Of a DNA stretch of 41,292 nucleotides, positions 9,860 through 25,422 are shown in pieces (position 1 is the first letter of the stretch; each line of letters begins with the position of its first letter). Both the position numbers and the translations under genes were made by a program. The notes beneath the pieces are model-generated. The model did no database searches, had not been told where the DNA came from, and saw only the letters and a list, made by a program, of their open reading frames with translations. This DNA is from Gammaproteobacteria bacterium (lineage in GTDB: Bacteria > Pseudomonadota > Gammaproteobacteria > GCA-001735895). The stretch spans positions 1 through 41,292 of the forward strand of contig JAAESG010000564.1 of the NCBI GenBank assembly GCA_024229615.1, given 5' to 3'.

Positions 9860-12307
9860 TTACATCTTCACCCTGGCGCCGGCTGGATCGTAAAAAGGCT
9901 TCAACGACGCCTCGGCAGGCCAGGTTTCGCCAGCAATTTCAATATCGAATGTCGCATTATTGATGAGCTCCGCGGTAACGCCGTCGGGGTGGCGGACATA
10001 GCCCATTCCGACCGCGCTGCCCAACGAGAAACCATAGGCACCCGAGCTCAGGTAGCCGACGATCTCGCCGTTCATACGGATCAATTCGTCGTGAAACAAC
10101 GCGGGTCCCGGATCTTTCAGTTTGAACAAAACCATTTTTCGATTCAGCACCTGCCCAGCCTGCGGCAGCAGGGCTTCGCGGCCATTGAACCCGCCGGGCT
10201 TGTCCATTTTCACAATAAAGCCGAGACCGGCCTGGAACGGCGTGTCATCGGGCGCCAGGTCAAGCACGAACTCCCGATAGCCGCGCTCGCAACGCAGATG
10301 TTCGAGGCTGTGATAGCCGGCCTGCTTCAACCCGAACGGCTTGCCGGCTTCGATAATAATGTCATACACATCCTGGACGAATTCTGACGAAATCTGCAGT
10401 TCCCAACCCAGCTCACCAACAAAGGTCATGCGCTTGGCCCGTACACGTGCATAGCCGATATCAATATCCTGTGCGCTGAGAAATGGAAAGCTCGAATTGG
10501 AAAGATCGGCACTGGTAATCGATTGCAACAGTTCGCGCGACTTCGGACCCTGTACGTTGAGTACCGAGTAAGCCGCGGTGACGTCGGTGACGGTGACATG
10601 CTGGTCGGGCTTGATGTGGCTGGCGATCCAGTTCATGTCACGGCAATGCACCCCGGCCGATGAGTATATGATGAAACAATCGTGCGCGAACCGATCGATG
10701 GTGATGTCGCACTCGATACCGCCCATGGAGTTGAGCATGTGGGTATACACCAGCTTGCCAACGGCGACGTTCACATCGCTCACGCACATCCACTGCAGAT
10801 AGTCGCAGGCATCGCGCCCCTGGACCAGGGTCTTGCCAAAGGAACTGATATCCATGATGACCACGCCTTCGCGCGCGGCCCGGCATTCCTCGGCCGTGTG
10901 CTCATACCAGTTGGGACGAAAGAAGGAGTAGGAGTTTTTCGGTTCGACGCCTTCTGGCGCAAACCACATGGGACGTTCCCATCCCGCGGTTTCGCCAAAA
11001 CAGGCGCCCGCCGCGGCCAGCCTGTCGTGCAGATGACTCTTGCGCGCCGGGCGCGATGTTTGATGATCCTTGAACGGCCAGCCCATTTCGAAAATACTGC
11101 CGAGGGATTCGGCACTGCGCTCACGCAGGTACTTGCGGTTGACCTGGAAGGGATGGAAACGCGCCAGGTCGTAATCGAGCAGGTCCATGTCCGGCTCGCC
11201 ATGGATGATCCACTGCGCCAATGCGCGCGCGATACCGGGGCTGATTTCGAAGCCTTCGGAGTTCAGGCCGGCGGCAATAAAACAGTTGCGCAGACCGGGG
11301 GCCTCTCCCAGGCACGGCAGGCTGTCCGGGGTAAAACTTTCCGGTCCGTTCATGAATTTGTTGATGCCGATGTCAGCCAGTTGCGGAATCATTTCCATAG
11401 CCCTGGTATAAGGCAGCGCAAAGTGGTCCCAATCCTCCTGGATTTCGATGAACTGTTGTTCGACGGGTAGTTTCTCTACCGGTAATGGTTTGCCGCGCGG
11501 CTCGAACGAGCCGATAAGCAACTTGCCGGCGTCCTCCTTCATGTAGGTGTAACCGTCCGTATCCCGTAGTACCGGCAGGGTCGGCACGACGAAGTCCATC
11601 GCCTCGGTCACGATATACATGTGTTCACAGGCGTGGAGCGGGACCCGCACTCCGAGCTGGGCGGCAAAATCCGCGGTCCACAGACCACAGGCCAGCACCA
11701 GGGTTTCACAGACGATGGCGCCGTTTTCCGTGTCGAGCCGGTACTCGCCCGAGGGCAGGTGTTGCAGTTTGTCGACCGGGGTATTTTCAAAAATCCGGGC
11801 GCCGCGTTTTTTTGCCCCGGCGACCAGTGCATTGACGGTGTCGACCGGGCTGAGCTGCCCATCCTCGGGAATGAACAAACCACCGGTGACAATATGCTCT
11901 TCGAGGGCGGGGTAGATGTTTTTCACTTCCCGGGCTGAAATGATGTGGGCGTCGATGCCGAAACTCCCGGCGAGACTGGCGCGCCGCTTCATTTCATGGA
12001 CGCGATCCTGGTTGCGCCCAACGGCAAGGGTGCCATTTTGCTTGAAGCCGGTGGCCATGCCGGTATCGGCTTCGAGTTCGGGGTAAAACCGCGCATTGTA
12101 TCTGGCAATTTCAGTTGTGGCATGACTGCCCCGAAGCTGCATGATCAACCCCGCAGCATGCCACGAAGTGCCGCAGGCAAGGGCACCGCGCTCGAGTAAC
12201 ACGACATCGGTGGCGCCAGCCAGGGTGAGCTGGTAGGCGATCGAGCTGCCCACAACACCGCCACCGACGATGACGATCTGTGCGTGACCTGGTAGATCCT
12301 TGCTCAT
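9860..12307 (-). CDS. Dimethylglycine/sarcosine dehydrogenase-like FAD and folate-binding oxidoreductase
   Basis: An 815-residue two-domain protein. The N-terminal DAO-type flavoprotein has a dinucleotide-binding motif, IVIVGGGVVGSSIAYQL, at 11-27 and the motif SWHAAGL, whose His50 aligns with the histidine that binds FAD covalently in dimethylglycine dehydrogenase. From about residue 430 a GcvT-like aminomethyltransferase domain follows (FGKTLVQGRDACDYLQWMC, YSVLNVQGPKSRELL, ELGWELQISSE), which in this family passes the released one-carbon unit to tetrahydrofolate. The expected reaction is oxidative N-demethylation of dimethylglycine, sarcosine or a similar methylamine to methylene-tetrahydrofolate. 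AAGGT precedes the ATG. It heads the corrinoid-methyltransferase part of the run, just downstream of a MITE-like element. Confidence 0.9.
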   Translation of the reverse strand: MSKDLPGHAQIVIVGGGVVGSSIAYQLTLAGATDVVLLERGALACGTSWHAAGLIMQLRGSHATTEIARYNARFYPELEADTGMATGFKQNGTLAVGRNQDRVHEMKRRASLAGSFGIDAHIISAREVKNIYPALEEHIVTGGLFIPEDGQLSPVDTVNALVAGAKKRGARIFENTPVDKLQHLPSGEYRLDTENGAIVCETLVLACGLWTADFAAQLGVRVPLHACEHMYIVTEAMDFVVPTLPVLRDTDGYTYMKEDAGKLLIGSFEPRGKPLPVEKLPVEQQFIEIQEDWDHFALPYTRAMEMIPQLADIGINKFMNGPESFTPDSLPCLGEAPGLRNCFIAAGLNSEGFEISPGIARALAQWIIHGEPDMDLLDYDLARFHPFQVNRKYLRERSAESLGSIFEMGWPFKDHQTSRPARKSHLHDRLAAAGACFGETAGWERPMWFAPEGVEPKNSYSFFRPNWYEHTAEECRAAREGVVIMDISSFGKTLVQGRDACDYLQWMCVSDVNVAVGKLVYTHMLNSMGGIECDITIDRFAHDCFIIYSSAGVHCRDMNWIASHIKPDQHVTVTDVTAAYSVLNVQGPKSRELLQSITSADLSNSSFPFLSAQDIDIGYARVRAKRMTFVGELGWELQISSEFVQDVYDIIIEAGKPFGLKQAGYHSLEHLRCERGYREFVLDLAPDDTPFQAGLGFIVKMDKPGGFNGREALLPQAGQVLNRKMVLFKLKDPGPALFHDELIRMNGEIVGYLSSGAYGFSLGSAVGMGYVRHPDGVTAELINNATFDIEIAGETWPAEASLKPFYDPAGARVKM

Positions 12308-12333
12308 ATAGTACCTTTGTGCGTCAAGGATTT

Positions 12334-12593
12334 AGCCTGCATATTGCGCCAGTATCCCGAGGCCTGACGCAGGACAGATGCGTCTGAACGCCGGTCTGGA
12401 CTGAAAGCCATAGCCGTAGGCTATGGCTTGAGGGAAAACCAAGTTCAGGCGCATCTGGACAAGTCAGGGCCGGGATAGGGATCGGGCCGTTGGTAAAATG
12501 TATTTTCGTTTTCGCCTGTGAAACCACTATTGTGCTCATCGAATTAAATTAGTTATACCCAGGCCCGAGACCGACTGGTGCAATATGCAGGCT
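12334..12593. mobile_element. MITE-like element with 20-bp terminal inverted repeats
   Basis: The left end, 12334-12353, reads AGCCTGCATATTGCGCCAGT. The right end, 12574-12593, is its reverse complement with one mismatch (19 of 20). Similarity fades inward but a GGCCTG block is still shared. The 260-bp element has no coding capacity and contains a long nested palindrome at 12353-12477. No target-site duplication is evident in the flanks. It fills nearly the whole gap between the Mo-subunit stop (12605) and the flavoprotein start (12307), so it may insulate or reshape transcription there. The parent transposase family was not identified. Confidence 0.75.
12353..12477. repeat. Nested long palindrome inside the MITE-like element
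   Basis: Four stems nest around one centre. TATCCCG 12353-12359 pairs with 12471-12477. GGCC-TGAC 12361-12368 pairs with 12463-12471, with one bulge. A 15-bp arm at 12375-12389 pairs with 12443-12457, with one G-U type mismatch. An 11-bp perfect hairpin, 12405-12415 with 12419-12429, has the loop GTA. It would fold into a strong cruciform or RNA hairpin on either strand, but has no T-run typical of a rho-independent terminator. Confidence 0.8.
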
Positions 12594-12604
12594 GGTGACA
12601 TTCA

Positions 12605-14929
12605 TCAGCTTTCGTTCTTCGCAGTGATCGCGGCCAGTACCTTCTCGGGCGTCAGCGGCAAGTCAAAAATGCGTGTGCCGATGGCGGCGGCAACCGCGTT
12701 GACGATAGAGGCGGCAACCGGGGCGAAAACCGGTTCACCGATACCCTTCGAGCCGAAGGGGCCCAAACCGCTGCGGGACTCGAGCACGATGGACTGGATC
12801 TCCGGTACATCTTCGGAGGTAGGCATCAGGTATTCGCTGAAGGAGCCGTTCTTGAGCACGCCCTTTTCCAGGATCAACTCTTCGCTGAGCGCAAAACCCT
12901 GACCCATCAGGGCGCTGCCCTCTATCTGGCCTTCCACGGCGCGCAGGTTAATCGCCTGTCCCACGTCGTGGGCGCCAACACTCTTGATCACGGTGACTTC
13001 GCCGGTATCGATATCGACGCTGACCTGGGCTGCATGCGCACCGTAGGTGAAATCGGGAAAAACCTCGCCCTGCCCGGTTTCCGGATCGAGTCCTTCGCTC
13101 GGCGGCGCCTTGAAGATGGCCAGGTTTTGGCGATGCACGCCCTCGGCCGCACAGACCTTGACCATTTCCTTGGTCGACATGCAGCGTTCCGGATTATCCA
13201 GCACGAAGACCTTTGAATCGGCGAGATCGAGTTCACCGGGCGATACCTCGAAATGCCTGGCCATGCATTCCAGCAGGTTATCCCGAACTGCGCGGGCAGC
13301 CAGTTCGGTTGCCTTACCGCTCATGTAGAGGGCGCGGCTGGCAGTGGATGTGCCTGCCAATGGGTTTACATGGCCATCGCCGAAGTAAACGGTCACTTCG
13401 TCCATGGGTACGCCGAGAATCTCACCGGCGATCTGCGCCAGGGCCGACATCTGCCCGGCGCCAATATCGGTTACCGCACAGCGTACGATGAGAGTGCCAT
13501 CCATCTCCAGGCCAACCCAGGATTCCGAGGTATCCTTCATCCAGCGGATGCGGCCGTAGCTCTGCTGGTAGCAGGCAAGGCCATGACCATAAACCAGGTG
13601 GTCGGAATTGCCCGGCTGCTCGCCAAGGGCAGCAAGCGCCTGGGTGGCGCACTGATCCGACCATACCGAACTGCGGATGATCTGACCGGTGGTGTTCGGA
13701 TCGCCTGGCTGGATGAAATTCTTGCGCCGCAGTTCCAGCGAATCCATGCCAATCAGCCGGGCGAGTTCTTCCATCTGTGCTTCGCAGGCGGTGTTGGCCT
13801 GCATCGTGCCGAATCCACGAAAAGCGCAGGCCGGCAGGTTGTTGGTCGCCGCCGAAGTCGAATCCACCCACAGGTTGTCGACGCGGTAGGGTCCGGTTGC
13901 GCCGACCGTGGCATAGAGCAGGATATAGGGGCTCAACTTGGCATAGGCGCCGGCATCCGAAGTGATGTCGATTTTCATCGCGGTGATCTTGCCGTCTTTA
14001 GTGACACCGGTTTTATGAGTAAAGGTAAACGGATGACGCGGGCCGTGGGATAAAAAGGAATTTTCACGGGTTTGAATCAGCTTAACGGGGCGTTTTGTAT
14101 CCATCGCCAGCAATGCCAGCCAGACCTCGATGGTCATGACCTCCTTGCCACCGAAACCACCGCCGATGTAGGGCGCCTGCAGATGCACCTTGTTATGGGG
14201 AATACCGAGGGCATTGGCGACTGCGCGAAAATGTTCGACGACCTGGGTACTTGAACGGATATTGAGGATTTCATGCTCATCGACCCAGGCCACGGCCGCC
14301 TCGGGTTCCATGAATGCCTGCTCCTGGTATTGCGATGAAAAAGTGTTTTCCAGGACGTAGTCAGCTTCGGCAAAACCTTTTTCAGTATCGCCCTTGCGAA
14401 TCTTGTAGGCCGAGACAATGTTGTCATCACTGTAAACGATTGGCGCCCCGGGCTTTTGCGAATCGAAAGGGTCATAGACACCGTCGGTGTCTTCATAGTC
14501 GACGACAATCAAATCCAGCGCCTGCTGGGCAAGTTCATAGGTTTCCGCAGCGATAAGAGCGATTGGCTCGCCGTGAAAACGCACTCGATCGGCCGCCAGG
14601 ATCGGTTGAGTGGTGTCCTTGGTGCCGCCGCCGGTCTGACCGGGGAGATCGGTCATAACGGAATTACAGGCCGTAAGATCGGCCGCGGTCAAAACGCTAT
14701 GTACCCCGGCCAACGCCCTGGCCGCCGATACATCGACACCCCTGATATTGGCACTGGCGCGGTCGCTGTGTAATACCTTGGCGAATAACATGCCTTCCAT
14801 GTAAAAGTCACCGGCATAAATCGCCTTGCCATAGACCTTGGTAGGAGCGTCGTTGCGCGGTTTGTTCTTGCCGACCTGGCGCAGGTTTACATTCGCGGTC
14901 GAGCCGGGAGAAACATCGGTCTGATTCAT
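12605..14929 (-). CDS. Molybdenum hydroxylase large (Mo-cofactor) subunit, set 1
   Basis: A 774-residue xanthine-dehydrogenase-family catalytic subunit. Cofactor-binding blocks include GGGFGGKE at 256-263, ACAFRGFG at 367-374 and the C-terminal KGIGEP at 728-733, whose Glu732 is the predicted catalytic base. The FRGFG form is that of xanthine dehydrogenase/isoquinoline-oxidoreductase-type enzymes; the AYRCSFR loop of true CO dehydrogenase is absent. Such enzymes insert water-derived oxygen into a C-H next to a heteroatom, usually in an N-heterocycle or aldehyde. The start overlaps the stop of the 2Fe-2S subunit gene (ATGA). Together with the two upstream genes it forms a complete L-S-M hydroxylase. 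The substrate is unknown; the neighbouring hydantoinase genes suggest a lactam-forming hydroxylation. Confidence 0.92.
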   Translation of the reverse strand: MNQTDVSPGSTANVNLRQVGKNKPRNDAPTKVYGKAIYAGDFYMEGMLFAKVLHSDRASANIRGVDVSAARALAGVHSVLTAADLTACNSVMTDLPGQTGGGTKDTTQPILAADRVRFHGEPIALIAAETYELAQQALDLIVVDYEDTDGVYDPFDSQKPGAPIVYSDDNIVSAYKIRKGDTEKGFAEADYVLENTFSSQYQEQAFMEPEAAVAWVDEHEILNIRSSTQVVEHFRAVANALGIPHNKVHLQAPYIGGGFGGKEVMTIEVWLALLAMDTKRPVKLIQTRENSFLSHGPRHPFTFTHKTGVTKDGKITAMKIDITSDAGAYAKLSPYILLYATVGATGPYRVDNLWVDSTSAATNNLPACAFRGFGTMQANTACEAQMEELARLIGMDSLELRRKNFIQPGDPNTTGQIIRSSVWSDQCATQALAALGEQPGNSDHLVYGHGLACYQQSYGRIRWMKDTSESWVGLEMDGTLIVRCAVTDIGAGQMSALAQIAGEILGVPMDEVTVYFGDGHVNPLAGTSTASRALYMSGKATELAARAVRDNLLECMARHFEVSPGELDLADSKVFVLDNPERCMSTKEMVKVCAAEGVHRQNLAIFKAPPSEGLDPETGQGEVFPDFTYGAHAAQVSVDIDTGEVTVIKSVGAHDVGQAINLRAVEGQIEGSALMGQGFALSEELILEKGVLKNGSFSEYLMPTSEDVPEIQSIVLESRSGLGPFGSKGIGEPVFAPVAASIVNAVAAAIGTRIFDLPLTPEKVLAAITAKNES

Positions 14930-15414
14930 GCTGCTTCTCCTTCTTCGCGCATCTTCCTGGCCGCAAGCAGCACGGCTTCAAAGATACGGGTATAACCGGT
15001 ACAGCGGCACAGGTTGCCACCGAGAGCGCGTTTAATCTCGGCCAGTGACGGATTCTGGTTGTCTGTCAGCAGGGATTTTGCGGCGACGATCATACCCGGC
15101 GTACAGTAACCACACTGGGCGGCGCCGGTTTCGATAAAGGCCTCTTGCAGCGGGTCGGCCTTGCCCGGCTGGCCAATGCCCTTGATGGTGGTTACCTCGC
15201 AACCATCGACATGCCAGGCCAGCGTCAGGCAACTGTCGACGGGCTCTCCGTCGAGCAGTACCGCGCAGGCGCCACAGTCACCCTTTTCGCAGCCGCATTT
15301 GATTTCGACAAAACTTTCGTGACGCAGCGCTTCCAGCAAGGTGCGATGCGCCGGCACGACCAACTCCACGGCTTTTCCGTTGACGTTGACGTTGATGCTT
15401 TTTTCTTTGCTCAT
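14926..15414 (-). CDS. Molybdenum hydroxylase small 2Fe-2S subunit, set 1
   Basis: A 162-residue iron-sulfur subunit. The plant-type ferredoxin domain shows CGCEKGDCGAC near residues 40-50 with the fourth cysteine in DSCLTL. The second, helical 2Fe-2S domain shows CGYCTPGM and CRCTGY. It carries electrons from the molybdenum site to the FAD subunit. It overlaps the large-subunit gene by 4 nt (ATGA) and lies 15 bp after the FAD-subunit gene, so the three are co-translated in the order M-S-L. Confidence 0.95.
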   Translation of the reverse strand: MSKEKSINVNVNGKAVELVVPAHRTLLEALRHESFVEIKCGCEKGDCGACAVLLDGEPVDSCLTLAWHVDGCEVTTIKGIGQPGKADPLQEAFIETGAAQCGYCTPGMIVAAKSLLTDNQNPSLAEIKRALGGNLCRCTGYTRIFEAVLLAARKMREEGEAA

Positions 15415-15429
15415 GAAATGATCCTCGTA

Positions 15430-16290
15430 TCAGGCAAGCTGTTTCCAGGCCTGGGTCAGCAGGCGACGGGTCAGGGAAAACGCGGTCTGCAAGCGGTAAC
15501 CGGCGCTGGCGCGTATGTCATCTATGGGCGCACATTGATCTGCCGCTGTCCTGGCGGCCTGCTCGATGAGGTCTTCGTCGAGCGCCTTGCCGGTCAACAG
15601 ATCTTCGGCGGCGCGCGCACGAAAAACGGTCGGGCCAACCGAGCCCAGGGCGATACGCGCGCTGCAACACACACCGTCTTGCGCCGCGATCATTACCGCA
15701 ACGCCCGTCACGGTGATAGCATCTCCTTTGCGTCGGGCAAGCTTGTAGAACAGGTTGACGCTGTTTACTGCCGGAATACTCCAGCTCACGCTGGTCAGCA
15801 GTTCGTCAGCACGCTTTACCGATTTCTTGTAATCGACATAGAATTCGTCAAGAGGAACGGTGCGCTCACCGCTGGCACTGCTCAGGGTGACCTCTGCACC
15901 GAGCGTCAGCAATGCCGGTACGGTGTCGGCCGAGGGCGACCCGCAGCAAATGTTACCGCCGATAGTGGCTGCATTTCGCACCATGGTACCGGCAAAAATT
16001 TCGGCCGCCGCATACAGTGCCGGGGCATCGGTCTGCATCGCGCTGTCGCGCAGAATATCCGAAATAGTGGTGCATGCACCCACGGTTACCCTGTCACCCT
16101 CACGGTTGATGTAACGCAGATCGTCCAGGGCTTTGAGCGAAATAAAACTTCGACAGGTTTCACGTTTGCCACGAAGGTCCGGGACCAGGTTGGTGGCCCC
16201 TGCCAGCGGCTGCATCTCATCGCTTTTGGCCAGCGCCTGCAGGGCGTCGCCCAGTGACTGTGGCTGGTAGAGGTCGAAGGAAGGTAACAT
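15430..16290 (-). CDS. Molybdenum hydroxylase medium FAD-binding subunit, set 1
   Basis: A 286-residue FAD-binding subunit like CoxM or the FAD domain of xanthine dehydrogenase. It begins MLPSFDLYQPQSLGDAL; the FAD pyrophosphate loops read PLAGATNLVPDLRG, where AGATN replaces the more common AGGTD, and RNAATIGGNICCGSPSAD. The start at 16290 is supported by GGAG upstream; a longer frame to 16347 would overlap the upstream SDR gene and has no support. It passes electrons from the 2Fe-2S subunit to an acceptor. The gene is 35 bp downstream of the SDR gene. Confidence 0.92.
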   Translation of the reverse strand: MLPSFDLYQPQSLGDALQALAKSDEMQPLAGATNLVPDLRGKRETCRSFISLKALDDLRYINREGDRVTVGACTTISDILRDSAMQTDAPALYAAAEIFAGTMVRNAATIGGNICCGSPSADTVPALLTLGAEVTLSSASGERTVPLDEFYVDYKKSVKRADELLTSVSWSIPAVNSVNLFYKLARRKGDAITVTGVAVMIAAQDGVCCSARIALGSVGPTVFRARAAEDLLTGKALDEDLIEQAARTAADQCAPIDDIRASAGYRLQTAFSLTRRLLTQAWKQLA

Positions 16291-16325
16291 AAATTGTCTC
16301 CGGCTAAATCGGTGTCTAAATCGGG

Positions 16326-17108
16326 TTAAACGGCCCAGCCGCCGCAAATGACCATTTCCTGGCCGGTAATGTTCCTGGAGTCATCGCAAGCCAGGAAAAC
16401 AACGGCATTAGCGATATCCTGCGGGGTGGTTACGCGTTTCAGGGCCATTTCGGCCACGTAATCCGCGTATTCCTCTTCATAGCTGGTGCCCTTGGTTCGG
16501 GCTTTTTCGTGGCACAGTTTGTCCATGCGCGGGGTTTCAACAATGCCGGGCATGATGGCATTGACATTGATATTGTGTTCGCCGCAATCGAGTGCCGCAG
16601 TGCGGGTCAGTCCGCGCACACCCCACTTCGAAGAACTGTAACCGGCACGATAGCGGTATCCCTTTAAACCGGATGCGCCCCCGATGTTGACGATCTTTCC
16701 ATACCCGTTTTCGATCATGGATGGAATTGCATATTTCATCGGCAGGAAAGTTCCAATGATGTTCTTGCTCAGCAGGGATTCAAAATCCTCCCCGGAAATA
16801 TCCCAGACCGGGGTTTCGATGGGACCGGTGGCACCGGCTGCATTGACCAGCACATCGATGCATCCATCGAAAAACTCCAGGGCTCCGGCGATCATGGCTT
16901 CGACTTTTTTATCGTCGGTAACATCACAGGAGATCGCGGTTGCCCGGATGCCGTCGGCTTTCAGTTCTTCGGCAAGCTCCTCGATTGGTCCCGGGGTCCG
17001 GGCAACCAGTACAAGATTGGCGCCTTCCGCGGCGAGTTGCCGGGTTATGGTGCCCCCCATTCCCTGGGCTGCACCGGTGATGACTACGTTTCTGTCTTTT
17101 AATTTCAT
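16326..17108 (-). CDS. SDR-family oxidoreductase, copy 1
   Basis: A 260-residue classical short-chain dehydrogenase. The nucleotide-binding motif is TGAAQGMG (residues 11-18), NAAG follows near 89-92, and the active-site pair is YSSSK, with NIGGASG before it supplying the catalytic serine. The C-terminus ends GQEMVICGGWAV. It probably oxidises an alcohol or reduces a ketone with NAD(P) in the pathway served by the flanking hydantoinase and hydroxylase genes. Its start overlaps the hyuB stop (ATGA). A close paralogue of identical length is encoded at 33746-34528; both share the long block PGIVETPRM and MALKRVTTPQDIANAV. Confidence 0.93.
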   Translation of the reverse strand: MKLKDRNVVITGAAQGMGGTITRQLAAEGANLVLVARTPGPIEELAEELKADGIRATAISCDVTDDKKVEAMIAGALEFFDGCIDVLVNAAGATGPIETPVWDISGEDFESLLSKNIIGTFLPMKYAIPSMIENGYGKIVNIGGASGLKGYRYRAGYSSSKWGVRGLTRTAALDCGEHNINVNAIMPGIVETPRMDKLCHEKARTKGTSYEEEYADYVAEMALKRVTTPQDIANAVVFLACDDSRNITGQEMVICGGWAV

Positions 17109-18733
17109 GAGTCCGCTGTCTCCCGCGAGTCGTGTGTAGGCGGTGTGCCATAGCCACCGCCGCCACTGGTTTTCATGATAATCCGGTCACCCTGTTGCAA
17201 ACGCAAATGGGTCTTACCGGCGATATTTTCAGTTTCACCCGAAGCGCGCTTCAGGGTGATATTGAACGTTTTCCCCGCTTCACCGCCCTGCAGACCAAAT
17301 GGTGGAACGATGCAACGCTCAACCATGGAGGTCATCACCACTTCCGGGCCGTTTATCAGGTAAGTACGAATCTGGCCGTCACCACCGCTATGAACACCAT
17401 TGCCACCCGAGCCGCTGCGCAGGGCCTGCTGCTCGATAATAATGGGATAGTTGGCCTCGATCACTTCGGCAGGTGTGTTCATCACGTTGGACATGTGCGG
17501 GCGAGCCACACACATACCGTCACGATCATGGCGAGCACCCTCACCGCCACCATGAACTTCGTAGAGCGTGGTCCATTGTCCGCTGCGTGGATCACGACCA
17601 CTGAACAACAACAGGCCCGAGGTGGTGGAGCCGCCGGCGGTCAATCGTTCCGGGATGGTATTTTCAAAGGCATTGAAAATGGCATCGACGATACGCTGCG
17701 ATGTTTCATGATTCCCACCGACCACCGGTTTTTCCAGGGGCGGATGCAACAACGATCCCTCGCGGATAATGATCTTGAGGGGGCGCGCGCAGCCGGCATT
17801 GGGTTGAATGTCGGGCCCGGCAATGACCTTCATCGCGTAAAAAACGCTGGCCGAGGCGGTAAACGGGGTCGCGTTGAGCGGCCCGGCCGCGGCATCGCCG
17901 GTTTCGGAAAAATCAAATACTGCCTGTTCGTCCTGGATCTCGATACGCACGCGTACCGGGATGCGTTCACCGCCCAGGCCATCGTCATCGAGCCAGTCCT
18001 CGCCGACGTAGACACCGTTGGGCAAGGTTCGAATGGCGGCCCGCATTTCCGCCTCTGACTGATCGTGCAGATCGGTAATGGCGGCCTGAACCGTAGCGGC
18101 GTCATAGCGAGAGAAAACTTCCTGCAGGCGTTCATCGGCAGAATAGGTAGAAGCCATCTGCGCCAGAATATCGCCCTCGCGCTCTTGTGCACCGCGCACG
18201 TTGGCGAGAATCATGTCGAGTTTTTCCCGATCAGGCCCTTGCTCGCTAAACACACGCAAGGGTGGAATGCGCAAGCCCTCCTGCCAGGCATCGCGGGCAT
18301 CCGGAACATAACTGCCGGGTCTTGCACCACCGATATCAGCCCAGTGGGCAAGACTTACCGCATAGGCCTGTATCGCACCTTCAGCAAAGACTGGACGAAT
18401 CGCCTTCACATCCGGCAGATGGTTACCGCCCGCTTCCGGCAGGTTCATAAACCAGACATCGCCAGGTTGCAGCTTTTGCGGTGGAACGCGCTTGAGAAAT
18501 TCCTGCACCGTAGAACCCATGACACCCAGGTGCGCCGGAATGTCACGACCCTGGGCAATCAGGTTACCTGCGCTGTCGGTGAGGGCCGATGACAGGTCAC
18601 CGGCTTCGCGCAGTAGCGGCGAACGCGCCGAACGCATCACGATCAGCGACATTTCCTCGGCAATGGCGGTCAGCGCATTGCGGATCACTTCGACGGTAAA
18701 GGGGTCCGGTCTTTGCTCAGGTTTTGCGTTCAT
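17105..18733 (-). CDS. hyuB: HyuB: hydantoinase B / oxoprolinase-family subunit
   Basis: A 542-residue protein of the hydantoinase B/oxoprolinase family. It opens with DPFTVEVIRNALTAIAEEM, then SARSPLLREAGDLSSAL and GRDIPAHLGVMGSTV; the C-terminal glycine-rich tail ends SGGGGYGTPP. With HyuA it forms an ATP-dependent amidase that opens lactams or cyclic imides, as in N-methylhydantoinase and 5-oxoprolinase; related pairs are carboxylases. ATG 18733 overlaps the hyuA stop (ATGA), and an upstream in-frame start inside hyuA is not needed. The tight coupling to hyuA and to the SDR gene downstream shows one operon. Confidence 0.92.
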   Translation of the reverse strand: MNAKPEQRPDPFTVEVIRNALTAIAEEMSLIVMRSARSPLLREAGDLSSALTDSAGNLIAQGRDIPAHLGVMGSTVQEFLKRVPPQKLQPGDVWFMNLPEAGGNHLPDVKAIRPVFAEGAIQAYAVSLAHWADIGGARPGSYVPDARDAWQEGLRIPPLRVFSEQGPDREKLDMILANVRGAQEREGDILAQMASTYSADERLQEVFSRYDAATVQAAITDLHDQSEAEMRAAIRTLPNGVYVGEDWLDDDGLGGERIPVRVRIEIQDEQAVFDFSETGDAAAGPLNATPFTASASVFYAMKVIAGPDIQPNAGCARPLKIIIREGSLLHPPLEKPVVGGNHETSQRIVDAIFNAFENTIPERLTAGGSTTSGLLLFSGRDPRSGQWTTLYEVHGGGEGARHDRDGMCVARPHMSNVMNTPAEVIEANYPIIIEQQALRSGSGGNGVHSGGDGQIRTYLINGPEVVMTSMVERCIVPPFGLQGGEAGKTFNITLKRASGETENIAGKTHLRLQQGDRIIMKTSGGGGYGTPPTHDSRETADS

Positions 18734-20760
18734 GCACCTGTCCCCGCGGTTATGATCAGATGACCTGTCGCATCGATCCACGCTGTTGCGCCTGGGGGCA
18801 GGACGATGGTCGACCAGTTATCTTCAATGACAGCCGGACCCTCGACCTCCCAGTCAACCGGCAGGGCACCGCGTTCAAAACGCCGGGTCGTCACCGGTCC
18901 GCTGGCGTCGAACCAGCATTGATCGACTGAGATCGGCGTGGTGGATTTTTCCTGCCCGGTTTCGTGAATATCGGTGAAGCTGTGTTGCGATGGAGCGCTA
19001 ACGGTTGTCCGCAGCGATTCAAACAGCCAGGCCTCCTCGGTGGCAAAACCATACAGTTTTTTGTGCCGGGCTCTGAAATCCGCACCCAGTTTTTCCGGGT
19101 CACAGGGCAGGACAAAAGGCACTTCCACCGTATCGCTTTGTCCGGCATAACGGATCAGGCCAATAAAAAGCGTCTCGATGGTGCCGGCAGCGTGCCCGGC
19201 TGCAACAATCGGTGTGCTCAAACGATCCCGCATCGACCGACATAGCGTATCCATGCGATCAGCATCCCAATCGGCACTTGGCATGCGCACGGTATGTTGC
19301 TCGGCATAGCTGAGTTCGGCGGTCAGGCAACCGAGAGCAGAAAATACGCTGGAAAATTTTGGCACCACCACCCTGGCAATGCCGAATTCCCGGGCCAGCG
19401 CCACCGCGTGCATGGGGCCGGCGCCACCAAAGGCAATCAGGGAACAGGATCGCGCATCGACACCGCGCTTTACCGTAACCCGGCGTAGTGCTCGCGCCAT
19501 GGAAGCATTGGCTACCCGGTAAACGCCGAGGGCGGCTTCATCTACCGATGTAGCAAATGCATCGGCAAGCGTCTGCATGGCGGTCCCGGCTGCTTCCCGG
19601 CTCAGTTGGATTGCACCACCGAGCAGGCGTTCAGGATTGAGATATCCCAGAGTCATATTGGCATCGGTCACCGTGGGCAGTTCGCCGCCCAGCCCGTAAC
19701 AGGCCGGACCGGGCTCGGAACCGGCACTATCGGGGCCGACACGCACCGCCGATCCTTCCACACGGGCAATCGAACCTCCACCGGCACCGATGGATTCAAC
19801 CGCCACCATAAGCTGGCGCACCGGCCGGCCGGCAAGGCGCTGGTCACTACCCACCTGAACCTTACCGTCAATGACCACGCAGGTATCGGTGGTGGTGCCA
19901 CCCATATCGAAACCAATGGCGTTGTCCAGACCGAGTTCGCTGCATATCTTGCCAGCCGCGGCCACCCCGGCAGCTGGACCGGACAGGGCAAGCGTCAACG
20001 GGCGACTTCTAACCGCCTCGACCGAAGCCATGCCACCGGCCGAATGAAACAGATGGATGTTACTGTGGTCTCCCGCCCCGGCCTGAAGCTTATCCAGGTA
20101 GCTCGCCGTCAGCGGCATCAGGGCGGCACTTAATATAGTCGTATTAGTGCGTTCGAACTCCCGCGGTTCGGGGCTCATCTCATGGGAGAGTGCAACATAT
20201 TTGACTGTGCTGGAAAGCTGTTCACCCAATCTCTTTTCATGATCCGCATTGACAAAACAGTGTTGCAGCGCGATGGCTACGGTGTCGACATTCAAACTGT
20301 CGATGATCCCGGCCACGCGGCACGCTTCGGCTTCCGTCAGGGGCTTGAGAACCTGGCCCTCGGGCCCGATCCGTTCGATCGCTTCGACGCGAAGATGCTG
20401 CGGAACCAGGGGCGGCAGCTTTGGAGTAACCTCCAGACGATAAAGTTCGCGGCGATTCTGGCGCCCGATTTCGATGGTGTCACGGAAACCCTCGGTGGCG
20501 ACCAGTGCAAGCGGCGCAAGATTACCCTCCACGATGGCGTTGGTCGCCATGGTGGTGCCGTGCATCAAGTCGGAAACCGTGGACCAGTCGATGCGAATGG
20601 CCGCGTATGCGGAGACAATGCTGGTAATTGGATCATGCGTCTGGCTACGGACTTTCGCGGTGCGAACCTCGCCATCGGCAGCATTGATCGCCAGCACGTC
20701 GGTAAACGTGCCGCCGATATCAATGCCAACTTTCCAGGTGCCTTTATCGTTATCGCTCAT
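18730..20760 (-). CDS. hyuA: HyuA: hydantoinase A / oxoprolinase-family ATPase subunit
   Basis: A 676-residue ASKHA-fold subunit. The N-terminal phosphate loop KVGIDIGGTFTDVLAIN lies at about 10-26, then MHGTTMATNAIVEG and the second phosphate motif GFDMGGTTTDTCVV; further on SGPAAGVAAA and GGAGPMHA match the hydantoinase A domain. It phosphorylates the amide carbonyl with ATP before the HyuB-dependent ring opening in characterised relatives. The start is ATG 20760; the frame extends upstream into the promoter without a better start. It is the first gene of the long minus-strand run and divergent from the LysR gene, with a LysR-type operator between them, so it is the likely direct target of that regulator. 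Confidence 0.92.
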   Translation of the reverse strand: MSDNDKGTWKVGIDIGGTFTDVLAINAADGEVRTAKVRSQTHDPITSIVSAYAAIRIDWSTVSDLMHGTTMATNAIVEGNLAPLALVATEGFRDTIEIGRQNRRELYRLEVTPKLPPLVPQHLRVEAIERIGPEGQVLKPLTEAEACRVAGIIDSLNVDTVAIALQHCFVNADHEKRLGEQLSSTVKYVALSHEMSPEPREFERTNTTILSAALMPLTASYLDKLQAGAGDHSNIHLFHSAGGMASVEAVRSRPLTLALSGPAAGVAAAGKICSELGLDNAIGFDMGGTTTDTCVVIDGKVQVGSDQRLAGRPVRQLMVAVESIGAGGGSIARVEGSAVRVGPDSAGSEPGPACYGLGGELPTVTDANMTLGYLNPERLLGGAIQLSREAAGTAMQTLADAFATSVDEAALGVYRVANASMARALRRVTVKRGVDARSCSLIAFGGAGPMHAVALAREFGIARVVVPKFSSVFSALGCLTAELSYAEQHTVRMPSADWDADRMDTLCRSMRDRLSTPIVAAGHAAGTIETLFIGLIRYAGQSDTVEVPFVLPCDPEKLGADFRARHKKLYGFATEEAWLFESLRTTVSAPSQHSFTDIHETGQEKSTTPISVDQCWFDASGPVTTRRFERGALPVDWEVEGPAVIEDNWSTIVLPPGATAWIDATGHLIITAGTGA

Positions 20761-20796
20761 GCCATTCACCCTTGAAAAATGGCGGAATTTCGTAGT

Positions 20797-20901
20797 TAGT
20801 GGAAATTCATTGTGATTTCCACCACAGGGCATTTTATCGCCGAAGCATTGATAAGCTAAATTTCAATTTATTTGTTTTGAAGCAAGTTTTTAGCTATACA
20901 A
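20797..20901 (-). promoter_or_regulatory. hyuA-lysR divergent control region, LysR-box copy 1
   Basis: A perfect LysR-type dyad, ATTGA-N11-TCAAT, lies at 20847-20867. On the minus strand it is followed by a conserved ATAAAATG (-10-like, 20830-20837) directed at hyuA. On the plus strand TTGTTT-N17-TATACA (20872-20900) is a good promoter for lysR. The whole block recurs at 36122-36227 with the same internal spacing, including 25 identical bases from 20847. Confidence 0.82.
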
Positions 20902-20962
20902 GAGAGGTGGAAATCCCTATATTGGTCGGCTTGAAAACAACACGAATATTCCGGGGGTCGCC

Positions 20963-21946
20963 ATGTTGCATTACTCGTTACGCCAGCTGGAGTATTTTGT
21001 CACCACGGCGGAATGTAGTTCCGTCGCCAATGCGGCGCGCATGTTAAGCGTTTCGCAGCCGTCGGTTTCAAAGGCCATTACCAACCTGGAAGGTCAGTTT
21101 TCAACGCAACTGTTTGTTCGTCATCACGCCAAGGGAGTTTCGCTGACCCGGGCTGGCGAGCGTCTCCTGGTCGATGCGCGAAGCCTGTTGCGTTACGCCA
21201 GGGACTTGCAACAAAGCTTCATCGACTCCGGCGAGCTCGTTACCGGGCAGGTCGAGGTGGCTTGCTTCCTGAACGTGGCCCCGATTTTCATGCCGGCCCT
21301 GTTGGCGGATTTTCAGAAGCTCTACGGGAATATTTCGATTCGATTGCACGAAGAGAATCAGGACAAGCTGATTTCAGGCCTGATCTCCGGCCGCTACGAG
21401 ATGGCGTTGATGTTCGACCTGGTGTTGCCTGCCGAAATTACGATTAATAAAATGGCCGGGTTCGATCACTATATCCTTTTACCTGAAGACCATCGGCTGG
21501 CTTCAAAAAAGAAGATTTTCCTGGGCGATATGAAGGATGACAACCTGGTGTTGCTCGATATCCCGCCAAGCCGTGAGTATTTCCTGGGAATTTTTCGCTC
21601 GCTCGGACTGGAACCCCGGGTCTCGTTGAGCTCGCCATCACTTGAAATGGTGCGCGGCATGGTTGGCCAGGGGCGGGGGTATTCCTTGCTGGTGACCCAC
21701 CCGCACCTGGACTATACCTACGACGGTCAAAAAATTGTGACGCTGCCGTTGGCCGACGATATACCACGCGCCGAGCTGGGAATTGCGCGGCACGCACAAA
21801 TCCGTCCGACACGTGCAATGAAGTTGTTTTTTGACTTTTGCACGGACTGGTTTAAGAAATACTATCCCAGGGGTGGGTCCTGCCGCGCCGAACCGCCGCT
21901 TTTCAATCCGTCCGCCGGTTCGCTTAGCGAAGCCAGAAGAGATTAG
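20963..21946 (+). CDS. LysR-family transcriptional regulator
   Basis: A 327-residue LysR-type regulator. The N-terminal winged helix (about residues 5-64) shows LRQLEYFVTTAECSSVANAA and QPSVSKAITNLEGQFSTQLF. The rest is a typical substrate-binding-like effector domain (GQVEVACFLNVAP, LPEDHRLASKK). The last ~25 residues after KKYYP run into a low-conservation tail and may be a secondary extension. It lies divergent from hyuA, and a LysR-type dyad sits in the gap. A second copy of the same dyad block fronts the aminotransferase operon 15 kb away, so this protein probably controls both. The effector is likely a pathway intermediate. Confidence 0.93.
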   Translation: MLHYSLRQLEYFVTTAECSSVANAARMLSVSQPSVSKAITNLEGQFSTQLFVRHHAKGVSLTRAGERLLVDARSLLRYARDLQQSFIDSGELVTGQVEVACFLNVAPIFMPALLADFQKLYGNISIRLHEENQDKLISGLISGRYEMALMFDLVLPAEITINKMAGFDHYILLPEDHRLASKKKIFLGDMKDDNLVLLDIPPSREYFLGIFRSLGLEPRVSLSSPSLEMVRGMVGQGRGYSLLVTHPHLDYTYDGQKIVTLPLADDIPRAELGIARHAQIRPTRAMKLFFDFCTDWFKKYYPRGGSCRAEPPLFNPSAGSLSEARRD

Positions 21947-22444: not shown

Positions 22445-22530
22445 CAGATCTCAGGCACAGATCTCAGGGTGCAGATCTCGACACAGGGGACACACACTTC
22501 GAGGGAGGGATATCAGGGGACACACACTTC
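22445..22530. repeat. CAGATCTC triplet and two CAGGGGACACACACTTC copies
   Basis: CAGATCTC occurs at 22445, 22458 and 22472. It is followed by two direct copies of CAGGGGACACACACTTC at 22484-22500 and 22514-22530. The ACACACAC core reappears before the transposase (23718-23735) and, inverted, after it (24968-25066). Confidence 0.8.
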
Positions 22531-22831
22531 AAGTTGCACAGGATTCCATGGATTTTATCGGCATCTGAATATCCAGAAGGTATCCAGCCTGTTGATTTGC
22601 AGCGGAAAAATTCCACTATTCAGGTGTCGAGTGCGTGTCCCATTGGGGTTGCATCAACCGGTGCGCCAATGGGTGCCTGGTTTTCCATACCAGTCCGGAA
22701 GCGGCTCATACGTTTCTCTTCGTCAGCCGTCCGACAAACACGGGCCAGTTTTAAACGCAAATCAACACATCCATATCCTATATACTCGCGATCATGATCT
22801 AAATACGCCAATCACCTCAGAAGGGATAACC
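22531..22831. other. Non-coding stretch upstream of the methyltransferase gene
   Basis: About 300 bp with no recognisable protein fragment on either strand. An open frame continues through it from 22346 in phase with the methyltransferase, but its translation is unlike any family and lacks conservation features. It probably carries the promoter of the downstream gene. Confidence 0.4.
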
Positions 22832-23623
22832 GTGCCGAGAGAACTACATCAAAGTCAGTACACTGACGCGGCAATAGCAAGCATCGAAATGGTCTGTGGT
22901 GACGGCTTTATGTCTCCCGGTGGTGAACAGTGCGTTGCCCGTATTGTCGAGGGACTGGCTGTTTCCGGGAAGAAAGTACTGGAAGTCGGCTGCGGTCTCG
23001 GCGGGGTCCTGGTCGCCCTGGTACGCAACCATCATGCGGGATCGGTTCATGGTATGGACCTGGAGACTAGCGTTCTGGAGCGGGCAAAAAAACGCGTTCT
23101 CGCCGCAGGGCTGGAAAAGACAATTCGACTTCAGCAAGTCATGCCGGGCCCCTTCCCCGTCGATGACGACAGCTTCGATTTCGTAGTGTGTAAGGAAATG
23201 CTGTGCCACATCGAAGATAAAAAAACGTTTTATGCCGAGTTGGTTCGAGTGATCAAACCCGGTGGCTGGCTGATTGGTAGCGACTGGTTAATCAGCAACG
23301 AGGCGCCGGGAACGCCGGCGTACGAAAGCTGGCGAACACGGCTCAAGGACGCAGGATTGATTTTCCATTTTGCATCCTTTGATGAAACCGTCGCCGATTT
23401 TGGCAATGCCGGTCTGAAAAATGTTCAGGTCAGCGACAATTTCGACTGGATCAACGGCATCCATGATGAACACCATGAACGCGTTCATGGCTCGGCAAAG
23501 CAGGCTTTGCTGGATGCTCTTGGGAACGATGGCTATGAGGCCCTGGTTGTACGCACGCAAAACCGAATCGAAGCTGTGACAAAAGGCATACTGTTGCACT
23601 GTAATTTCAGGGCACAAAAATAA
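22832..23623 (+). CDS. Phosphoethanolamine N-methyltransferase-like SAM methyltransferase
   Basis: A 263-residue class I SAM methyltransferase. The N-terminal SQYTDAAIASIEMVCGDGFM and SPGG block, then SAM motif I VLEVGCGLGG at about 49-58 and the acidic GMDLE, match the single-domain phosphoethanolamine N-methyltransferases of protists and nematodes (about 265 residues). These methylate phosphoethanolamine in three steps to phosphocholine; related enzymes methylate glycine derivatives. GTG 22832 is chosen, with AAGGG 7 nt upstream, because conservation begins there; the frame is open further upstream without similarity. It lies alone between repeat arrays near the transposase and may be a mobile passenger. 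The exact acceptor is uncertain. Confidence 0.75.
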   Translation: MPRELHQSQYTDAAIASIEMVCGDGFMSPGGEQCVARIVEGLAVSGKKVLEVGCGLGGVLVALVRNHHAGSVHGMDLETSVLERAKKRVLAAGLEKTIRLQQVMPGPFPVDDDSFDFVVCKEMLCHIEDKKTFYAELVRVIKPGGWLIGSDWLISNEAPGTPAYESWRTRLKDAGLIFHFASFDETVADFGNAGLKNVQVSDNFDWINGIHDEHHERVHGSAKQALLDALGNDGYEALVVRTQNRIEAVTKGILLHCNFRAQK

Positions 23624-23660
23624 ATTCGGCACAAGGGCTAGCCCACGATTTAACCCGCAA

Positions 23661-23735
23661 GAACAAAGCACGAACAAAGGCGAGGCGAACAAAGGGCGAA
23701 CAAAGGGCGAACAAGAACAAAGGGACACACACTCT
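23661..23735. repeat. GCGAACAAAGG tandem array ending in AAAGGGACACACAC
   Basis: Short imperfect units (CGAACAAAGG, GCGAACAAAGGG twice, GCGAACAAG) are repeated head to tail and end in CAAAGGGACACACACTCT at 23718-23735, just 65 bp before the transposase gene. The last unit shares AAAGG(G)ACACACAC with the inverted repeats downstream of the transposase. Confidence 0.75.
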
Positions 23736-23800
23736 ATCATTGACATCGATCGATCCCAAGATGTAGGATTTCCATATTCTCAGACAAAAGGAATTGACTG

Positions 23801-24769
23801 ATGACCCGACCCAGGAAGGCGTTGATCTCGCTCGCCGATACCCCCTATTACCACATCACCTCACGCTGTGTTCGACGTGCTTATCTTTGTGGGGTAGACC
23901 ATTATTCCGACCGCAACTACGAACACCGCCGACAATGGGTCGTCGACCGCATTCGCCTGCTCTCGTCCCTGTTTGCCATCGACGTCTGCGCCTATGCGGT
24001 CATGAGTAATCATTATCACTTGGTACTCAAGCTCTGTCCCAATCAACTGGATGATATGGAGGATGATCAGATTATCGAGCGATGGTGCGCCTTGTTTAAA
24101 GGCCCGCTGCTGATCCAACGCCATAGGGATGGAGAATCCCTCACATCGCCCGAAATGGCGACCGTAAAGGACACCGTCAAGATCTGGCGCGGGAAGCTCT
24201 CGAGCATCAGTTGGTTTATGCGCTGCCTGAATCAACCCATTGCCAGACAGGCCAATCTGGAAGACCAGTGCACCGGCAAATTCTGGGAATGCCGATTCAA
24301 ATCCCAAGCACTAAAAACCGAAGAAGCCCTATTGTCCTGCATGGTCTATGTCGATCTCAATCCGATTCGGGCTGGATTGGCAACCAGCCCGGAGACCTCG
24401 GACCACACCAGTATTCAGGAACGTATCGAGCCTGTTTTTAATCTGAAACATGCGATAAAGCGCCAATTTGAAAATGGCGATTTGCTGGATCTCAAGACGC
24501 CGCTCAAGGCGCTATTGCATTTCGAGGGTGGCATCGTCGACAAACCTCACTGCGGCATGTTATATAACTTTCAGGACTATCTGGAACTGGTGGACTGCAC
24601 CGGCAGGGTGATTCGAAATAACAAACGGGGTTTCGTCGACAATGAGCTGCCCCCTATCCTGACAAGATTAGAAATATCCCCGAGACAGTGGGTTATCAAT
24701 ACCACCCGGTTTGAAACCATTCATGCCGGACGCTTCAATCGGGTAGTTCCCAATATCGACACGGGATAG
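23801..24769 (+). CDS. REP-associated tyrosine transposase (RAYT, IS200/IS605-like Y1 family)
   Basis: A 322-residue Y1-transposase-family protein. It begins with the family block YYHITSRCVRRAYLCG; the metal-binding HUH motif is H71-Y72-H73 in YAVMSNHYHLVLKL. A tyrosine in CMVYVDLNPIRAG is the likely nucleophile region. RAYTs are single-copy domesticated-like relatives of IS200/IS605 transposases that act on nearby repeats. The frame is intact, so it may be active. It is flanked by short repeats with an ACACACAC core, inverted on the two sides, rather than by obvious GTAG-type REP hairpins. Confidence 0.9.
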   Translation: MTRPRKALISLADTPYYHITSRCVRRAYLCGVDHYSDRNYEHRRQWVVDRIRLLSSLFAIDVCAYAVMSNHYHLVLKLCPNQLDDMEDDQIIERWCALFKGPLLIQRHRDGESLTSPEMATVKDTVKIWRGKLSSISWFMRCLNQPIARQANLEDQCTGKFWECRFKSQALKTEEALLSCMVYVDLNPIRAGLATSPETSDHTSIQERIEPVFNLKHAIKRQFENGDLLDLKTPLKALLHFEGGIVDKPHCGMLYNFQDYLELVDCTGRVIRNNKRGFVDNELPPILTRLEISPRQWVINTTRFETIHAGRFNRVVPNIDTG

Positions 24770-24967
24770 GTTCCATCCCAAATCCATCGGTACCTACTCA
24801 CCATCCTCTCGTGGTAACGGGCGGCCATTGCCCCGGTTTGCCGAAATTACACCCCGTTGTCGGTACCAAGATCAAATTTCACCAACCCAATTAATCTGTA
24901 ACGGATGCTGGCCACAGAACCGTCCTATCATTCTACTTTTTGGGGGCCTTATTACTACCTTCTTTTT
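24770..24967. other. Spacer after the transposase gene
   Basis: About 200 bp with no gene or recognisable remnant on either strand. It leads into the inverted GTGTGTGTCC repeat array. Confidence 0.4.
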
Positions 24968-25080
24968 GGGTGTGTGTCCTTTGAATCTGGGTGTGTGTCC
25001 TTTGAATCTCTCTATCTTGGGTGTGTGTCCTTTGAATCTTTTTTTGGGTGTGTGTCCTTTGAATCTTTTCCTTTGAATCT
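24968..25080. repeat. Four-fold GGGTGTGTGTCC array downstream of the transposase
   Basis: The 21-bp unit (GGGTGTGTGTCC followed by TTTGAATCT) occurs exactly at 24968-24988, 24989-25009, 25019-25039 and 25046-25066. A fifth partial copy, CCTTTGAATCT, is at 25070-25080. Its reverse complement shares AAAGG-ACACACAC with the repeats upstream of the transposase. A frame through it would encode a GVCPLNL peptide repeat, an artefact of the DNA repeat. Confidence 0.9.
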
Positions 25081-25422
25081 TTTTGCTTCGGCGCAACCTG
25101 ATTCAACGTGCCGGTCGGTTGACCAGGCCTCAACAAAATCTCACGTTAACTGATGAGCGCAAATCCAGCCGTCAAATCCGAGTTGTTGCATTACCTGAAC
25201 ATACTCAATCAAGCCGCATGATTTCGATCTAGCCAGAATTTATGCAATGATTGGGTTAAGTCAGATTTCGGATGCTCCAAGACCCGACGGTGGCGCGAAT
25301 TTCTCTCTTTACCTGGTGGACTAGTGAAATAGGGTGTTAATATCTTCATATACCCCAACCATGCTCAGTAAACTTTATAACAAGAATAATCGCAGACAAA
25401 ATCATATTGACAGAATTTACAA
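25081..25422. other. Upstream region of the choline sulfatase gene
   Basis: No supported gene. A 22-codon frame from ATG 25153 (MSANPAVKSELL...) ends quickly and could be a relic. The last 100 bp are AT-rich and presumably hold the sulfatase promoter; no clear operator palindrome is seen, and the ribosome-binding site before ATG 25423 is weak. Confidence 0.4.

Follow-up and report, generated by a model that had tools for sequence, protein, structure and literature searches.

Within the TnpAY1 transposases, subclass 2.3 carries the motifs NHYH, WE and YVDLNP in a protein of ~325 aa, and no REP-like flanking repeats were reported for it (Quentin et al. 2018, PMC6006769). A second described group, the TIRYTs or TIRtrons, comprises tyrosine transposases with inverted repeats sharing the sequence GGGGWSAS (Di Nocera et al. 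2013, PMC3733652). Twenty of the 26 described TIRYTs fall in the related subclass 2.1 and the rest in 2.2 and 2.5, with none in 2.3 (PMC6006769). The literature we searched gave no biochemistry for subclass 2.3, and no description of the terminal motif reported below. Here we analyze a RAYT locus in a 41,292-nucleotide gammaproteobacterial contig (JAAESG010000564.1; "the window").

The transposase gene (23801..24769, + strand) is an intact ORF of 322 aa with the HUH motif N70-H71-Y72-H73, F161-W162-E163 and the tyrosine motif Y183-VDLNP; H71, H73 and Y183 are invariant in a 46-sequence alignment. An AlphaFold model (pLDDT 84) predicts an HUH fold with a single tyrosine, and its best PDB match is 4ER8 (E 2.7e-4), the structure of a RAYT bound to a REP hairpin, followed by ISDra2 and IS608-type entries. 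A sequence-profile search against solved structures returned no significant match for the RAYT, and Pfam returned none for the window protein. The NCBIfam model REP_Tyr_transpos aligned partially to it, at 44.5 bits against a cut-off of 80. The RAYT model matched 46 of the 46 aligned sequences, and Y1_Tnp weakly matched 45, the exception being the window protein. The identification of the enzyme as a RAYT-type (HUH/Y1) transposase is thus supported. Its NHYH, WE and YVDLNP motifs and its length near 325 aa, compared with Table 1 of PMC6006769, are the signature of subclass 2.3, to which it is assigned on the basis of signature, length and taxa. Like members of that subclass (PMC6006769), it is found in several diverged copies per genome within Gammaproteobacteria, namely Chromatiales / Alteromonadales and kin, with relatives in Ectothiorhodospira, Colwellia, Alteromonas and others. 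Unlike what the same survey recorded, the gene is surrounded by inverted termini of GGACAC type and by arrays with a fixed edge.

The left terminal motif, GGGACACACAC, lies at 23722..23732 (+), 68 nt before the RAYT start codon. It is preceded by an array of five tandem copies of the host flank GAACAAAG (23661..23722, +), which are partial units: four lack the motif and the fifth runs into it. Four inverted copies of the motif, GTGTGTGTCC, lie 200-290 nt past the RAYT stop (24970..24979, 24991..25000, 25021..25030 and 25048..25057, all - strand), and in each unit the motif is bordered on its outer side by (AA)AGATTCAAA, a flank specific to this locus; a further unit at 25070..25079 (-) consists of flank only. 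A distal pair of GGGACACACAC motifs (22487-22497 and 22517-22527, +) stands 30 nt apart and faces an inverted near-motif, GTGCGTGTCC, at 22631..22640 (-). The first-pass annotation had recognized a RAYT between inverted sets of these repeats, and this stands, with three + strand copies and four inverted ones around the ORF. It had also set the repeats apart from the usual GTAG-type REP hairpins and had noted that the left set brackets a methyltransferase gene; by eye the repeats at the window RAYT indeed have no GTAG foot, and the two distal copies do lie upstream of that gene. The repeats resemble TIRYT repeats in being inverted around the gene and unrelated to GTAG REPs, and GGGGWSAS fits GGGGACAC at 22486-22493, the RAYT-proximal copy AGGGACAC being one base off. 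TIRYT repeats also sometimes occur in dimers or clusters, as here (PMC3733652).

The methyltransferase gene (22832..23623, +; class I SAM type, Pfam Methyltransf_11 3.7e-20) had been proposed as a possible passenger of the element. Such a composite transposon, in which inverted arrays would mobilize methyltransferase and RAYT together, is suggested by motif copies on both sides of the two genes, but we consider it scarcely credible. Another genome of the same genus (G004) is colinear with window positions 12136-21936 and with the methyltransferase (22846-23638) at 83-87% nucleotide identity and has no match to the window RAYT, so that the methyltransferase and ~10 kb to its left are kept where the transposase is missing, rather than the supposed cargo being missing from an empty site. 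Synteny with G004 is lost just downstream of the stop codon of the methyltransferase gene, at the start of the RAYT unit. In G004 only 167 bp separate a LysR-like gene from the methyltransferase match; the window is ~740 bp longer in this interval, and the extra DNA holds the distal motif pair. Rather than marking an end of the RAYT unit, this pair is matched by an inverted partner, GTGCGTGTCC, and the two together make up a gene-less mini-element of ~160 bp. Furthermore, at the other full RAYT copies in the source genome, motif and RAYT are not separated by a gene of this kind. We reject the methyltransferase as transposon cargo and regard it as a resident host gene outside the element. Two findings had been named beforehand as telling against the first-pass annotation: one, the methyltransferase kept without the RAYT, is what G004 shows, while the other, absence of the repeats from the RAYT clade, is not so.

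Indeed, the same kind of motif is found before the gene, and in many relatives inverted after it, both in the same genus and in other families, and ~80 relatives from named Gammaproteobacteria show enrichment of it ahead of the gene and, in inverted form, behind it. In an unbiased 6-mer count comparing 78 loci from named species with control windows, the top upstream 6-mers were ACACCC, CACCCA and GACACC, present at 46-47 of 78 loci versus 8-10 of 72 controls (ACACCC 47 versus 8; GACACC 46 versus 9, p=2e-9 for GACACC). Downstream, inverted CACCCA occurred at 40/78 loci versus 8/66 controls. The motif logo reads [GA]GACA[CG]CCA[CT] and has its median position at -80 from the ATG; outside the motif, positions -9 to -4 are rich in A/T. 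In Aeromonas sp. RU39B, homology between the closest copies (93-95% identity) begins at base one of GGACACCCA and ends with the final base of TGTCC, although in one case it reaches 6 nt past TGTCC. Because homology among these copies runs from GGACAC to TGTCC, the motif is the element end and the flank is not mobile. The GGACACACAC motif is therefore the terminus of the transposase element, common to its clade, and alignment of the copies establishes GGACAC(A/C)CA, at the level of sequence, as its terminal recognition site. The earlier suggestion of cognate sites belonging to a less studied RAYT subgroup is upheld by this clade-wide motif, the repeats being the end sites of that subgroup. A REPIN-like inverted mini-pair, GGACACCCA...TGGGTGTCC, spans 58 bp in Aeromonas finlandensis (L249 1867-1924), ~1 kb upstream of a RAYT.

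We found no clean empty site for any full RAYT copy, and mobility consequently rests on dispersed copies with shared ends. For the Aeromonas copies, the flanking DNA was absent from the other genomes searched. At the window copy an empty-site junction cannot be set: on the left, divergence begins immediately beyond the methyltransferase stop, and on the right, the array borders directly on what is left of another transposase gene. This 3' remnant, which we take to be IS1380-like, lies directly outside the right array (25085-25260) and has longer relatives in G004, G008 and G016. A plasmid collection yielded 13 records, all <60% identical, and no near-identical pairs for comparison of array length.

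The source genome, a 5.24 Mb draft in 735 contigs with some RAYT copies at contig ends, contains four full RAYT copies plus fragments, the three outside the window being 69-81% identical to it. A genome-wide count, as the first-pass annotation had recommended, gave 13 matches to RGGGACACACAC versus 0 for the reversed pattern, indicating that the repeat is not due to chance, and most matches accompany additional copies of this RAYT, complete or fragmentary (C601, 81% identity; C662, 76%; a fragment on C317). The motif or a variant precedes the three further full copies and several 5' fragments, and inverted copies or variants follow the other full copies as well. The close RAYT fragments on C317, C89 and C139 are all 5' fragments, two of which break off at nearly the same residue (66 and 68), immediately ahead of the HUH motif. 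The fragment on C317 (860-1330) is located at the 3' end of csrA, and the element end therefore supplies the last residues of CsrA (EGHTL).

Across the loci of the relatives, the share of bases lying in direct 10-mer repeats is 13%, 21% and 5% in the first three upstream bins of 100 bp, 9-11% at +200-400 downstream and ~1% elsewhere. Local direct duplications were found at 43/77 loci versus 4/69 (p=2e-11) and at 38/77 versus 8/65 (p=2e-6). Read inward, an array unit begins with outside flank particular to its locus and continues through the motif into the interior for a variable length, and many units end before or within the motif. The duplications have a nearly fixed outer edge beside the motif. 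In 41 arrays the median within-array SD was 1.2 nt for the outer edge versus 7.6 nt for the inner (Wilcoxon p=6e-6), where the scoring requires a match near the motif and may sharpen the outer edge somewhat. The 8-mer-seed edge analysis was noisy in controls with seeds placed elsewhere, and is backed by stricter scoring, in which 54 edge-spanning matches start at a median of 10 nt (IQR 9-12) outside GACA and shuffles gave 0. Inner ends vary from a few to >300 nt inside the motif. An example is found in RU39B, where units of 27, 54, 82 and 335 nt followed by the whole element all begin at (CT)CTTCGA; the right side of another RU39B copy is the mirror image of this left series, and in A. caviae a single 413-nt unit stands ahead of a full copy.

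Duplication also occurs away from the RAYT. On contig C82 of the source genome, a native motif inside a dctM-like coding sequence (KGVCPPGV) is triplicated at 30- and 31-bp spacing, breaking the reading frame, and no RAYT is present within the 8 kb read. Since the dctM-like orthologues in G027 and G004 have a single motif copy, this native site was duplicated in place. In a further array (G026:C20) no coding frame was seen through the array. Among isolated motif sites in the genus, 9 of 33 have a 7-nt flank repeated within 80 nt, compared with 2.5% of random positions (p=1e-7). Tandem motif arrays are present in 5 of 17 RAYT-bearing versus 4 of 78 RAYT-less genomes (95 relatives, p=0.008), and two of those four RAYT-less genomes carry RAYT end fragments. 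The isolated motifs of G004, 18 in number in a genome with no window-RAYT match, are mostly free of duplications, indicating that the motif alone is insufficient for arrays. One of these dispersed GGGACACACAC sites resembles a remnant of the left end of a RAYT.

The position of the arrays allows an explanation by selection, in which they are regulatory iterons, operators for TnpA that tune its promoter, with copies arising by unequal recombination. A likely RAYT promoter lies directly inside the left motif (TTGACA 23740-23745, 18 nt, TAGGAT 23764-23769, +), a TTGAY box follows just downstream of the left motif in 33/79 relatives, and motif copies are repeated upstream. However, downstream arrays, away from the promoter, are nearly as common, many partial units are motif-less and one array sits inside the dctM-like gene; we judge this explanation of the arrays improbable. 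Even less probable, in our view, is that the units are separate insertions of short mobile DNA made elsewhere, as proposed for REPINs. Gene-less inverted mini-pairs do exist (window 22487-22640, L249 1867/1916 and sites in G005), but the flank within a unit is specific to its locus, even the opposite ends of a single element having different flanks, and the dctM unit is the gene's own coding sequence.

The reading we favor, and hold to be probable, is that the RAYT and its GGACACACAC termini form a small transposable element of TIR type in subclass 2.3, whose HUH transposase also nicks, extends and rejoins DNA in situ. The transposase would cut the strand that reads GGACAC ~10 nt outside the motif and remain bound to the 5' end through a phosphotyrosine; host polymerase would lengthen the free 3' end, running a variable distance into flank, motif and interior, and the new 3' end would then be joined back to the held 5' end. 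Every round would add one more tandem unit whose outer edge is fixed and whose inner edge varies, and arrays of flank and motif would thus grow at both element ends and at chance motifs. As the left motif abuts the -35 box, TnpA binding there may also lower transcription of the element itself. A fixed start with a free end is the expected trace of site-specific nicking, extension and rejoining. HUH enzymes make such nicks and joints. While the element and its sites are well supported, we infer the chemistry from the fixed-edge duplications and by analogy with HUH enzymes, and cutting at the fixed edge and rejoining are accordingly put forward as presumed activities of TnpA. The broader proposal, that an HUH tyrosine transposase, besides transposing, repeatedly duplicates its own site and host DNA from a fixed nick, also at chance motifs in host genes, is advanced tentatively, with our own judgment leaning slightly towards doubt.

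The junctions bear on both this reading and its main competitor, in which the transposase does no more than bind or nick the motif and the resulting roadblock leads to ordinary polymerase slippage or template switching, which makes the units with no enzymatic rejoining. Localization to the motif needs only a lesion or roadblock there, variable unit length is typical of slippage, and where a site is nicked or covered by protein, slippage could produce a fixed edge much like this one. On the other hand, most array junctions show either <=2 nt of overlap or homology or a small number of added bases. Slippage generally relies on longer homology, which makes plain slippage less likely. The restart point is also nearly fixed in unrelated flanks, and units extend >300 nt. 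We therefore regard slippage as rather unlikely, while taking it seriously. Counted against enzymatic rejoining, 73 of 257 junctions have 1-5 extra bases and others longer spacers, which simple rejoining does not explain.

The element also differs in several respects from the closest known systems. In-place, fixed-edge duplication of host flank is not described for TIRYTs in the part of PMC3733652 considered here. Like TnpA-REP/RAYT systems with REP and BIME, the closest structurally (HUH fold, 4ER8), the locus has one enzyme with its own family of short sites in both orientations around the gene, but REPs are GTAG-footed hairpins, in contrast to the short GGACAC motif that serves as the site at this locus, where array units also include host flank. 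The HUH fold and Y1 tyrosine are shared with IS200/IS605 (IS608, ISDra2), in which left cleavage also falls away from the recognized hairpin; the larger protein and the array growth at both ends seen here are differences. A RAYT subclass without recorded end sites in PMC6006769 is now given end sites, which makes it testable. Enzymatic duplication in place would explain the growth of RAYT-linked clusters, would predict from sequence alone a cut site ~10 nt outside GGACAC, and would mean that tandem repeats can be introduced into host genes by a transposase that does not transpose in the process, giving repeats specific to a locus an enzymatic origin.

Two minor features accompany the element. 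A repeat of ~95 bp at window 25259-25354, upstream of a sulfatase-like gene, had no Rfam match and is present in many genomes of the genus, several times per genome in some. The source genome also encodes another RAYT-like protein (C324 990-1685), which is shorter and of a different type.
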